DNA from: Zavarzinia marina
GTDB taxonomy: Bacteria; Pseudomonadota; Alphaproteobacteria; Zavarziniales; Zavarziniaceae
Length of the DNA stretch: 64,000 bases
Direction: 5' to 3'
Assembly: GCF_021568905.1 (NCBI RefSeq)
Contig: NZ_JAKGSB010000009.1
Location: 1-64,000, forward strand
Position 1 is the stretch's first letter; each line of letters begins with the position of its first letter. The notes beneath the pieces are model-generated. The model was given only the letters and a program-made list of their open reading frames with translations, was not told where the DNA came from and did no database searches. Below are positions 46,863 to 49,673 of the stretch, one piece after another. Both the position numbers and the translations under genes were made by a program.

Positions 46863-46889
46863 CCGCCGCCCGATCCGGGCGGCGGTTTT
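46863..46889 (+). terminator. Rho-independent terminator of the DUF3489 cassette
   Basis: Perfect 10-bp stem CCGCCGCCCG / CGGGCGGCGG with an ATC loop and a TTTT tail. It ends the plus-strand cassette and abuts the stop of the convergent DUF7220-like gene. Confidence 0.85.
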
Positions 46890-47113
46890 CATCTGGCATG
46901 GCGCAATCTGATCTCCTCGAACAGCCGCCGCAGCGCGTAGGAACGTCCAATGCTGACCACCGTGAAGATGGCACCCATCATGAGGTTCTGCGCCAGCGTC
47001 GTGTACAGCCCGAAGATCGGGAAGATCAGGATCTGGGTCACCACCGCCACGCCATAGCCGACGATCACGTTCGCAAAGGCCTCGACCAGCGACATGAGGC
47101 GGGATTGCTTCAT
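46889..47113 (-). CDS. DUF7220-like small membrane protein
   Basis: A 74-residue protein starting MKQSRLMSLVEAFANVIVGY with two hydrophobic segments (VGYGVAVVTQILIFPIFGLY and MMGAIFTVVSIGRSYALRRL). It resembles DUF7220 phage proteins (recalled). The function is unknown. Its start is 9 bases from the methyltransferase stop. Confidence 0.68.
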   Translation of the reverse strand: MKQSRLMSLVEAFANVIVGYGVAVVTQILIFPIFGLYTTLAQNLMMGAIFTVVSIGRSYALRRLFEEIRLRHAR

Positions 47114-47745
47114 GCCTCTGCCTCATCCATCGCCCAGCAGTTCAGCCGCCAGAGTTCGCAGCGCATGCGCTGCAACCAGCGGGACCACGCCGTTGCCACA
47201 GAGCCGAAGCCGGTCCACCCGGTGGGCCAGCCCATCAGCGCCTCGACGAACAGCGGGTTCAAGGTCCGGGGCGATGGCGAGATATCGCGCCCAGCCATCG
47301 ACGTCACCAGGACCTGGCGGCCAAGCAGGCCGTTCACCGGCGTGTTCGCGAGTGTCGTTGCTCCGTCCTTGTGATCCCGTGCCGTCGGCGTCATCCACAT
47401 CCCCGCCGCATGGGTCAGGTCGGCACTCCTGCGGTTGCCAGCGCTCGGCTTGCAGCCGTCGCTCGCCATCGGCGTCGGCCAATCCCGCGCCATCCGGTCC
47501 AGACCCTTCTCGTCGCGCCTGTCGCCACCTCGACTGCGAAAACTGTCGGTCTGCGGTGTCGGCCAAAGTGCTGCCGTCGTCGCAAGGTTCATCCCATGCT
47601 GGCCCGCCGCCTGCGATGGCGTCGGTTTCGTCTGCCGGTTTTCGTTGGCGCTGGCGCGGGGCGTCGGCCAGAGCCGCAGCAGTTCCGTCCGGTTCCCGCC
47701 ACTCGACCGGGTTCCAGAGCAAGCGCGCGGGGTCGGCCAGTTCAT
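47110..47745 (-). other. Second protein-like frame overlapping the cytosine methyltransferase gene
   Basis: In a frame shifted from the methyltransferase, codons from an in-frame ATG at 47745 to 47110 read as a coherent protein of 211 residues: WPTPRAC, LWPTPRASAN, LWPTPQTD, DWPTPMASDG, MWMTPTARDHKDG and TLNPLFVEALMGWPTGWTG. These words match a phage protein family (recalled) usually placed near methyltransferases. The DNA words are the same ones that give LADxA repeats and motif X in the other frame. The ATG is preceded directly by GAGGGGG, too close for good initiation, so expression is uncertain. Confidence 0.4.
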
Positions 47746-48304
47746 CCCCCTCGCGAATGGCGAGGATGAACAGACGCTCGCGCTTGTGGGGCGCGCCGAC
47801 CTCCGCCGCCGTGAAGAGGCCTGCCGCAAGCTTGTAGCCCATGCCGACCAGTCCGCTGGCGACTTCGGGGAAGCCGAGGCGGAGATGATGGGCGACGTTC
47901 TCAAGGAAGACAAAGGGCGGCTCGACCTCGCCGATGATGCGGGCGACATGAGGCCAGAGGTGGCGTGGGTCGTCGGCACCCCGGCGCTTGCCCGCGACGG
48001 AGAACGGCTGGCACGGATAGCCCGCAGTGACGATGTCCACCGCGCCGCGCCACGGGCGGCCGTCGAAGGTGGCAACATCATCCCAGACAACAGCCTGATC
48101 CAGGGACGCGTCTTCCATCCGCGCCACGAGAGTGGCTGCGGCATAGGTTTCCCGTTCGACATGGCCCACAGCACGATATCCGGGGATGGCGATGGTGAGC
48201 CCGAGATCGAGCCCGCCCGCGCCGGAGCAGAGCGAGAGGCCGAACAGGCATGCGTCTCCGGCTCCGGAAGCGTCTCCAGAGGAAGGTAAAGCCAGGTCAT
48301 GCAT
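47123..48304 (-). CDS. C5 cytosine DNA methyltransferase (Dcm-type)
   Basis: A 393-residue enzyme with the ordered C5-MTase motifs: FGLSLCSGAGGLDLGL (I), TAGYPCQPFSVAGKR (IV, Cys98), LENVAHH (VI, 135-137), GAPHKRERLFILA (VIII) and VDRLRLCGNGVVP (X). The target-recognition region between VIII and X is rich in LADxA/D repeats. It transfers a methyl group from AdoMet to C5 of cytosine; specificity unknown. No cognate endonuclease is visible, so it is probably a phage self-protection or anti-restriction enzyme. Start at 48304 lies one base from the upstream methyltransferase stop. A second reading frame overlaps its 3' half (47110-47745). Confidence 0.88.
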   Translation of the reverse strand: MHDLALPSSGDASGAGDACLFGLSLCSGAGGLDLGLTIAIPGYRAVGHVERETYAAATLVARMEDASLDQAVVWDDVATFDGRPWRGAVDIVTAGYPCQPFSVAGKRRGADDPRHLWPHVARIIGEVEPPFVFLENVAHHLRLGFPEVASGLVGMGYKLAAGLFTAAEVGAPHKRERLFILAIREGDELADPARLLWNPVEWREPDGTAAALADAPRQRQRKPADETDAIAGGGPAWDEPCDDGSTLADTADRQFSQSRWRQARREGSGPDGAGLADADGERRLQAERWQPQECRPDPCGGDVDDADGTGSQGRSNDTREHAGERPAWPPGPGDVDGWARYLAIAPDLEPAVRRGADGLAHRVDRLRLCGNGVVPLVAAHALRTLAAELLGDG

Positions 48305-48305
48305 G

Positions 48306-49673
48306 TCACGCGGCGGTCTTGCGCTTGCGCGCGGTTTCAGGAGCGGTGCCCGTCTCTGGGGCGTCGGCCGGCGCTTCACCCAGCCGCTCGTCCTTCACCT
48401 CGGCGAAGGTTCGACCGTCGCCGTCGAGGATTGCATCGCGCCCAGTCTCCGCCTGCCAGCGCTCCACGGCGACATCGACATAGGCCGGGCTGATCTCCAT
48501 TGCGAAGACACGCCGGCCGTTGGCCTCGCCCGCCATCATCTGCGAGCCGGAGCCAGAGAACGGCTCGTAGCAGAGCCCGCCACGGGCCACGTGCTGGCGC
48601 ATCGGGATCCCGAACGCTTCGAGCGGTTTCGGCGTCGGGTGGTCGGGACGCTCATCCTTCGCGAAGCTGGGCATTTCCCAGGTCGAGGGCAGCGTCTCCT
48701 CGGCGACCTTCGGTGGGCGGTTCGGGCGGCGCCAGCCCATGAAACAGGGCTCATGTTTCCAAAGGTAATGGGACCGGGTCAGGACGCCGCGGTCCTTCAC
48801 CCAGATGATCTGCTGATGGACGAAGGCGCCAGCCTTCTCCCAGCATGCTTCCAGCATCGCCTGGCGGCGGGACGCGTGCCAGCAATACCACGCGGCGTTC
48901 TCGGTGATTGCTTCGGCCACGGCCGCAGCGATGAAGCCATCGTAGAGCTCCGCGCCCTGCGAGCTGTCGTCCCATGTGGTGCCATAGGACGCCGACCAGT
49001 CCTTGTTGCGGGTCGGGTGGTTCGAGCCATCGTAATCGACGAGGTATGGCGGGTCGGTCGCGAACAGCACGGCGCGCTCGCCGTTCATCAGACGGCGTAC
49101 ATCCTGATGGTTCGTGCTGTCGCCGCAGAGCAGCCGGTGATCGCCGAGGATCCATAGATCGCCCTTGCGCGAGGCCGGATTGCGCGGCGGCTCGGGGATG
49201 GTCACGGGCGGAACCGAGCCGCCAGCCCCGCCGTCTTCATCGTCTCCGTCCGGATCGAGCGCGAGGAGCTTGTCGAGTTCGCCGTCGGAGAATCCAACCA
49301 GCGACAGATCGAAGTCCTCGGCCAGCAGTCCCTGCAGCTCGGCGGACAGCAACGCCTCGTCCCAGCTTCCGAGTTCCGTCAGCTTGTTGTCCGCGATGCG
49401 GTAGGCCCGGCGCTGCGCCTCGGTCAGATGACCGAGCACGATCACCGGCGCCTCCGTCAGCCCGAGCTGCGTGGCAGCCAGAACGCGGCCGTGGCCCGCG
49501 ATCAGCTCCCCGTCCTCGGCCACGAGGCAGGGCACGGTCCAGCCGAACTCGGCCATGCTGGCGGCGATCTTGGCGACCTGGTCCGCTCCGTGCACCTTCG
49601 CGTTCCTGGCGTAGGGCTGGAGGCGCGAAAGCGGCCAGGTCTCGATCCGCTCGGGGGCGAAGCTCAGCGTCAT
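48306..49673 (-). CDS. ParB-fused DNA adenine/N4-cytosine methyltransferase
   Basis: A 455-residue protein. Residues 1-140 are a ParB/Srx-like nuclease domain (KVHGADQVAKIAASMAEFGW, GELIAGHGRVLAATQLGL). Residues 165-430 are a beta-class amino-MTase with DPPY (207-210) first and FSGSGSQMMAGEANGRRVF later. The C-terminus is basic (ARKRKTAA). Such fusions are frequent in phages and methylate DNA, often near the packaging region. It overlaps nothing and lies 1 base from the cytosine MTase start. Confidence 0.87.
   Translation of the reverse strand: MTLSFAPERIETWPLSRLQPYARNAKVHGADQVAKIAASMAEFGWTVPCLVAEDGELIAGHGRVLAATQLGLTEAPVIVLGHLTEAQRRAYRIADNKLTELGSWDEALLSAELQGLLAEDFDLSLVGFSDGELDKLLALDPDGDDEDGGAGGSVPPVTIPEPPRNPASRKGDLWILGDHRLLCGDSTNHQDVRRLMNGERAVLFATDPPYLVDYDGSNHPTRNKDWSASYGTTWDDSSQGAELYDGFIAAAVAEAITENAAWYCWHASRRQAMLEACWEKAGAFVHQQIIWVKDRGVLTRSHYLWKHEPCFMGWRRPNRPPKVAEETLPSTWEMPSFAKDERPDHPTPKPLEAFGIPMRQHVARGGLCYEPFSGSGSQMMAGEANGRRVFAMEISPAYVDVAVERWQAETGRDAILDGDGRTFAEVKDERLGEAPADAPETGTAPETARKRKTAA

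Follow-up and report, generated by a model that had tools for sequence, protein, structure and literature searches.

Two nested frames at the methyltransferase locus

We analysed a stretch of 64,000 nucleotides (nt) of Zavarzinia marina (contig NZ_JAKGSB010000009.1, positions 1 to 64,000), hereafter the window, which contains a cytosine methyltransferase gene with two long overlapping frames that we call alpha and beta. The first-pass annotation had pointed to two protein-like frames in this gene between 47110 and 48304, and this interval does run from the first ATG of alpha to the last base of the beta stop codon. Based on sequence comparisons, the gene very probably codes for a two-subunit C5-cytosine methyltransferase of a prophage, with its two structural domains in overlapping frames of the same DNA. 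Its features are listed below (all on the minus strand, denoted -; aa, amino acids; TRD, target recognition domain; Roman numerals, conserved methyltransferase motifs).

47123..48304 (-): coding sequence of the predicted alpha subunit, C5-cytosine methyltransferase large domain (motifs I to VIII, unconserved linker, motif X), 393 aa from ATG 48304
47110..48300 (-): coding sequence of the predicted beta subunit, in the +1 frame relative to alpha, putative TRD modules and motif IX, 396 aa from ATG 48300
48295..48308 (-): TGA-C-ATG-C-ATG junction, with the stop of the upstream methyltransferase gene, the alpha start and, 4 nt later, the beta start
48200..48238 (-): alpha motif I (LSLCSGAGGLDLG)
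47978..48022 (-): alpha motif IV (GYPCQPFSVAGKRRG) with the catalytic Cys, placed by alignment to M.HhaI
47894..47920 (-): alpha motif VI (PPFVFLENV), placed by alignment to M.HhaI
47762..47800 (-): alpha motif VIII (VGAPHKRERLFIL), placed by alignment to M.HhaI; selection moves to the beta frame shortly downstream
47212..47742 (-): beta region under selection (putative TRD modules and motif IX); alpha reads the modules as an unconserved linker with LAD words
47713..47742 (-): start of beta module 1, NWPTPRACSG
47644..47673 (-): start of beta module 2, LWPTPRASAN
47539..47568 (-): start of beta module 3, LWPTPQTDSF
47455..47484 (-): start of beta module 4, DWPTPMASDG
47362..47397 (-): start of beta module 5, WMTPTARDHKDG
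47212..47262 (-): putative beta motif IX (LNPLFVEALMGWPTGWT); the second half of its DNA is constrained in both frames
47138..47221 (-): alpha motif X (RVDRLRLCGNGVVPLVAAHALRTLAAEL), where alpha-type selection resumes

The alpha frame matches PF00145 (E 4e-33, over residues 48-215 of the GTG-initiated open reading frame, ORF) and phrog_363 (E 1.8e-57), the latter match reaching profile position 312 of 327. Its motifs I, IV (PCQ), VI (ENV) and VIII, identified by alignment to M.HhaI, lie in one domain as in C5-methyltransferases. The motif X of these enzymes is also present (RLRLCGNGVVP) and under alpha-frame selection; it had been read correctly in the first-pass annotation, together with the LAD words. 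The second frame carries NWPTP, LWPTP (twice), DWPTP, WMTPTARDHKDG and LNPLFVEALMGWPTGWT, which had been thought to resemble a known phage protein family. Beta indeed hits phrog_1008 (E 1.2e-16) as well as phrog_27243 (E 2.7e-10), and has no match in Pfam or NCBIfam; a PDB sequence search was also empty. Both phrog_1008 and phrog_363 are labelled DNA methyltransferase, a label that is silent on the two families being halves of one enzyme in overlapping frames. As proposed earlier, one DNA word underlies the repeats of both frames: TGGCCGACNCC occurs five times in the window, four of them within the gene, for a mean of 0.48 and a maximum of 2 in shuffled sequences.

The junction reads GTGACATGCATGAC, in which the upstream TGA stop is followed by the alpha ATG and then by the beta ATG. 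An ATGnATG is found at this place in 88/88 IMG/VR relatives, the beta ATG is kept in 83/83 relatives, and the exact ATGCATGAC junction is present in 65 of 80 alphaproteobacterial genome loci. The listed alpha start, GTG 48379, is unlikely, and we prefer ATG 48304. Alpha codons 1-25, which represent the stretch upstream of this ATG, are devoid of alpha-type constraint and share their DNA with the last part of the upstream N4/N6-methyltransferase gene; in many relatives, the match begins only at residue 26.

Selection and open frames

The window gene was compared with 83 relatives, and substitution events were counted by parsimony on a tree of the 84 sequences. The two frames can be told apart because position 2 of beta codons is position 3 of alpha codons, and the beta wobble position falls on alpha position 1. 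In the core (alpha codons 105-212), events at alpha positions 1/2/3 number 187/119/816, indicating selection on alpha. The pattern is reversed in the TRD region (codons 213-352; 1360/242/203), where beta is selected. Motif IX (codons 377-392; 27/0/20) is constrained in both frames, and alpha is selected again at motif X (codons 393-418; 91/7/185). Raw rates for the 83 relatives follow the same course, with about.02-.08/.02-.05/.07-.24 over codons 30-210 and.20-.34/.03-.07/.02-.09 over codons 240-360. As a control, the upstream N4/N6-methyltransferase gene in the same loci has ordinary codon-position rates (.079/.071/.373). The hand-over of selection from alpha to beta is sharp and occurs just past motif VIII. 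Substitution tests in both frames across relatives had been suggested at the outset, and they reveal a selection that changes frame along the gene.

Amino-acid identities agree with these counts. In the TRD region, identity is 93.9% for beta, 72.9% for alpha and 71.3% for the unused third frame, and in the core it is 95.5% for alpha, 78.9% for beta and 77.5% for the third frame. Since alpha has no conserved residues between motifs VIII and X, it lacks a recognition domain and motif IX. Conservation of the second frame is thus borne out in the module region, where it is the conserved frame; it does not extend to the N-terminal half of beta, which in the window clade is barely above the third frame, so that only its openness is selected there. 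Conservation limited to the methyltransferase frame, with stops in the second, had been named as the outcome that would speak against an overlapping gene, and the opposite was found.

We next counted stop codons, permuting the codons of one frame synonymously and scoring stops in the other. With beta codons permuted, the TRD region is expected to have 251 alpha stops in the window clade and 202 in 59 diverse loci; none was observed in either set, and the stop deficit of the window clade is thus repeated in the diverse loci. Conversely, with alpha codons permuted in the window clade, the alpha core should contain 86 beta stops, but 1 was observed. The beta frame is open in 87 of 88 relatives, and the third frame has 8-14 stops. 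These results settle in the affirmative the possibility of a true overlapping gene.

A second, independent IMG/VR set was collected with a distant beta query (loci L176-L255, G+C content 39-62%). Of the 75 loci that could be scored, 74 show beta at the +1 offset, methyltransferase motif IV lying in the -1 frame, and motif X is back in the alpha frame near the beta end. In 67 diverse loci of this set, no beta stops occur between motif IV and the modules for 105 expected, and upstream of the beta start the stops observed in the +1 frame equal those expected. A Shine-Dalgarno site precedes the first beta ATG in 42/67 loci, as opposed to 23/617 for the other ATGs of the same stretches; AAGGAG-TTAGCAA-ATG is a typical internal start. 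Substitution rates are.141/.071/.193 over the core and.207/.137/.428 upstream of the beta start. Position 3 is thus slowed over the core, and the N-terminal part of beta appears to matter in these loci.

Both frames are therefore under selection, each in its own part, and both are held open, with beta having its own start. The first-pass annotation had left room for the second frame being a shadow of the first, with base composition and methyltransferase codons generating the WPTP words and PHROG families arising from mis-annotated ORFs. High-GC DNA does yield many long spurious ORFs, an antisense ORF at this very locus also has a PHROG match (phrog_38519, E 1.9e-15), and the N-terminal half of beta in the window clade shows no amino-acid constraint beyond that of the third frame. 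Nevertheless, over codons 213-352 alpha evolves fast at position 1 and is frozen at positions 2 and 3, opposite to the pattern of a methyltransferase frame, and this codon-position result refutes the shadow for the TRD and motif IX part. Beta openness is far above the permutation expectation, at 39-50% GC as well; internal Shine-Dalgarno sites and ATGs are present, and the same residues are found in frame in single-chain enzymes. Contradicted by both codon-position events and stop permutation, the shadow explanation has next to no likelihood.

The antisense ORF mentioned above (47435-48289, + strand, 284 aa) covers the alpha core and has stops within the phrog_38519-matched region in 6/83 relatives. 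It is probably a shadow cast by C5-methyltransferases on the opposite strand, from which a PHROG family was then built.

Single-chain, split and nested relatives

The nature of beta emerges from actinophage enzymes. In the mycobacteriophage Ulysses, gp78 (alpha) stops right past motif VIII. A 23-nt overlap links it to gp77, which is in the +1 frame and harbours x-P-T-P modules and LNAAFSEWMMGWEEGWV, followed by motif X at canonical spacing. In contrast, ShiLan gp70, Seagreen gp68 and gp4 of Gordonia phage Fitzgerald are single proteins, in which core, L-P-T-P modules, motif IX and motif X follow one another in one frame. Classification of 70 loci collected with the ShiLan query gives about 15 with an in-frame gene, 25 with a split pair and 26 with nested genes; in Gordonia phage Upyo, alpha and beta are separate genes with a 22-nt gap. 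The single-chain proteins hit phrog_363, to which alpha belongs, as well as phrog_1008, the family of beta. A profile of the window beta aligns with that of single-chain enzymes (E 3e-12), LNPLFVEALMGWPTGW facing LAPAFSEWMMGWPLGW, and the motifs IX (canonical LTxRE..) and X of the latter enzymes align with those of canonical enzymes. Through its match to the in-frame enzymes, beta has the motif IX of a C5-methyltransferase. Judged from these alignments, beta shares common ancestry with the part of single-chain enzymes that comprises the TRD and motif IX.

A model of a single-chain member (predicted template modelling score, pTM, 0.76) can be superposed on M.HhaI along its full length (Z 22.2, root mean square deviation 3.4, 245 residues). 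In solved C5-methyltransferases, motifs I-VIII and X belong to the large domain, and the TRD is part of the small domain, together with motif IX (PMC3404938). Given the motif contents of alpha and beta, the division of the gene into frames would coincide with the division of the enzyme into domains. The TRD expected between motifs VIII and IX is assigned to beta by position, selection and fusion, not by fold.

One may also regard alpha as a complete methyltransferase and beta as an unrelated, overprinted phage protein, in keeping with the lack of a Pfam match for beta. Alpha has no conserved residues from motif VIII to X, however, hence no recognition domain or motif IX, the C-terminus of beta is homologous to precisely that missing part in single-chain enzymes, and the Ulysses alpha protein ends past motif VIII and is thus incomplete. 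Two independent proteins are therefore very unlikely. The proposal of overprinting stands insofar as the second gene is real; the idea of an unrelated gene laid over the first does not, since beta appears to supply what the first frame is missing, the TRD and motif IX.

A programmed +1 frameshift past motif VIII could in principle link core, TRD and motif IX in one chain. The sharp hand-over of selection directly past motif VIII would fit such an event, as would the existence of single-chain fusions with the same order. Yet beta is open far upstream of any shift site, up to its own ATG (the single stop for 86 expected), an openness that frameshifting does not need, and Shine-Dalgarno sites precede the beta ATGs in a large clade. 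In addition, the Upyo genes are separate, and motif X is still required from alpha. We thus consider frameshifting improbable; as a sole route, it is disfavoured by beta openness and the Shine-Dalgarno sites.

A two-subunit enzyme with one domain per frame remains our preferred interpretation. Alpha would be the large catalytic domain, with motifs I-VIII binding S-adenosylmethionine and carrying the catalytic cysteine, and with motif X joined via a long unconserved linker. Beta would be the small domain, composed of several W-x-T-P modules reading the DNA target and of motif IX. The two proteins would be translated from neighbouring starts on one message. We infer that they assemble in trans into one heterodimer, as in M.EcoHK31I, in which alpha would catalyse methylation and beta would pick the site.

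Several observations weigh against this interpretation. The beta protein, the alpha-beta complex and methylation are predictions from sequence. Related loci enter the permutation and Shine-Dalgarno tests as if they were independent. Alpha, beta or both are interrupted in some bacterial prophage copies (L419, L443, L450, L452, L454, L458, L462), which is consistent with prophage decay. A direct hhalign comparison of beta motif IX with a small canonical profile gave a weak match (E 0.026), and the link of this motif to canonical enzymes therefore runs via the single-chain actinophage enzymes. As for structure, the modules of the single-chain model have predicted local distance difference test (pLDDT) values below 50, and the AlphaFold model of the window beta domain alone was uninformative (pLDDT 46).

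The beta genes of loci L176-L255 have 1-6 x-[PA]-T-P modules each, whose number and order vary by locus. For 96 of the 163 modules, another locus has a counterpart with 70% identity or more, often at a different position, which looks like an exchange of recognition modules. It is conceivable, though we hold it with some doubt, that domain-per-frame methyltransferases are widespread in phages, that frameshifts convert single-chain, split and nested forms into one another, and that nested beta is a cassette of interchangeable x-P-T-P modules giving several or changing targets while the catalytic frame stays fixed.

Two side observations concern individual relatives. The beta frame of L204:1676-2779 has an extra stretch of ~90 residues between modules with a helix-turn-helix-like segment (TTIKELVAKTDIKKTTIEHWFRKD), and it is open throughout. 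In single-chain ShiLan gp70 (L308:904-2073) and L306:556-2091, a short segment rich in alanine and aspartate lies between motif VIII and the first L-P-T-P module. This segment resembles the alpha-frame linker, hinting that the fusion may derive from the nested form.

Genetic environment and comparison with known enzymes

The genes flanking alpha and beta are as follows.

48306..49673 (-): upstream N4/N6 DNA methyltransferase gene, ParB-like N-terminus (phrog_498, E 2.5e-130)
46889..47113 (-): downstream DUF7220 gene (PF23858, E 6e-34); its ATG overlaps the beta stop as ATGA

A second DNA methyltransferase gene, of N4/N6 type, thus directly adjoins alpha and beta on the upstream side. The ATGA overlap between the beta stop and the DUF7220 start (47110-47113) suggests that DUF7220 is coupled translationally to beta and not to alpha. 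As neighbouring genes code for a terminase, a portal protein, a head protease, a RuvC-like resolvase, a primase/helicase and an exonuclease, the region is a prophage. Other phage methyltransferases protect phage DNA from host restriction, and by analogy this is likely the role of the enzyme described here.

Two-polypeptide C5-methyltransferases have precedents. M.EcoHK31I targets YGGCCR and M.AquI targets CYCGRG. Lee, Kam and Shaw reportedly found in 1995 that the small M.EcoHK31I gene is nested, in a different frame, within the large one and that both proteins are needed in vitro. The window gene resembles this reported layout, with beta (48300-47110), in the +1 frame, covering almost the whole of alpha. 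The larger M.EcoHK31I polypeptide is described as carrying motifs I-VIII and X and the smaller one motif IX, with the TRD predicted in the large subunit (PMC3404938). By this description, alpha with motifs I-VIII and X and beta with motif IX have their counterparts in M.EcoHK31I. Unlike what is predicted for that enzyme, however, the TRD region here is selected in the frame of the small subunit only. Furthermore, M.EcoHK31I belongs to a restriction-modification system, whereas the window gene is a prophage gene with no nuclease seen among its annotated parts. The published description of M.EcoHK31I (PMC3404938) would favour a similar layout here, with the TRD in alpha and beta adding motif IX only. 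Such a layout is extremely unlikely, as the TRD-region identity of alpha (72.9%) is about that of the unused frame (71.3%), compared with 93.9% for beta.

In M.AquI, the catalytic half and the TRD/IX half are on separate polypeptides, and half of the variable region is on the small subunit along with motifs IX and X (PMC3404938). The window gene differs in that motif X is in alpha, so that its small subunit does not combine IX and X, and in that the genes are nested. Ulysses gp78/gp77 represents the AquI-like form, gp77 carrying both motifs. With the single-chain actinophage enzymes (ShiLan gp70, Seagreen gp68, Fitzgerald gp4), the window gene shares the core, the x-P-T-P modules and the motif IX type; those enzymes differ in having one frame, one polypeptide and motif X at canonical spacing past IX. 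As for M.HhaI and other canonical C5-methyltransferases, motifs I, IV, VI, VIII and X are in common, and the split between their large and small domains is the split between the frames. The canonical enzymes are nevertheless single chains with one TRD, whereas the small domain here would lie in the other frame and comprise several modules.

Annotations rarely reflect this arrangement. GenBank lists both genes for Escherichia phage K1ind2 and Paenibacillus phage Bloom, alpha only for N15, Hades, Microbacterium phage vB_MoxS-R1 and Salmonella phage S9-5, and beta only for Komagataeibacter phage phiKX1 and Acidovorax phage Alfacinha1. A single DNA cytosine methyltransferase is listed in 12 of the 13 plasmid records found. 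In the open-licence papers searched, we found no account of nested phage methyltransferases, of a phage-wide pattern, of a TRD in beta or of a series of single, split and nested forms. The out-of-frame HNH insertions in mycobacteriophage methylases (PMC11855218) are a different phenomenon.

Many phage genes are thus annotated as complete cytosine methyltransferases although they would lack the recognition domain, which would sit unannotated in the +1 frame. Predicting specificity or cloning from the annotated ORF alone would then fail. Our results also suggest that the location of the TRD of M.EcoHK31I is worth re-examining. More generally, these genes would constitute a clear and very widespread same-strand overlap, with one structural domain of a single enzyme per frame, and they may serve as a test bed for the origin and upkeep of overlapping genes. 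With single-chain, split and nested relatives at hand, the evolutionary order of the three forms becomes testable.
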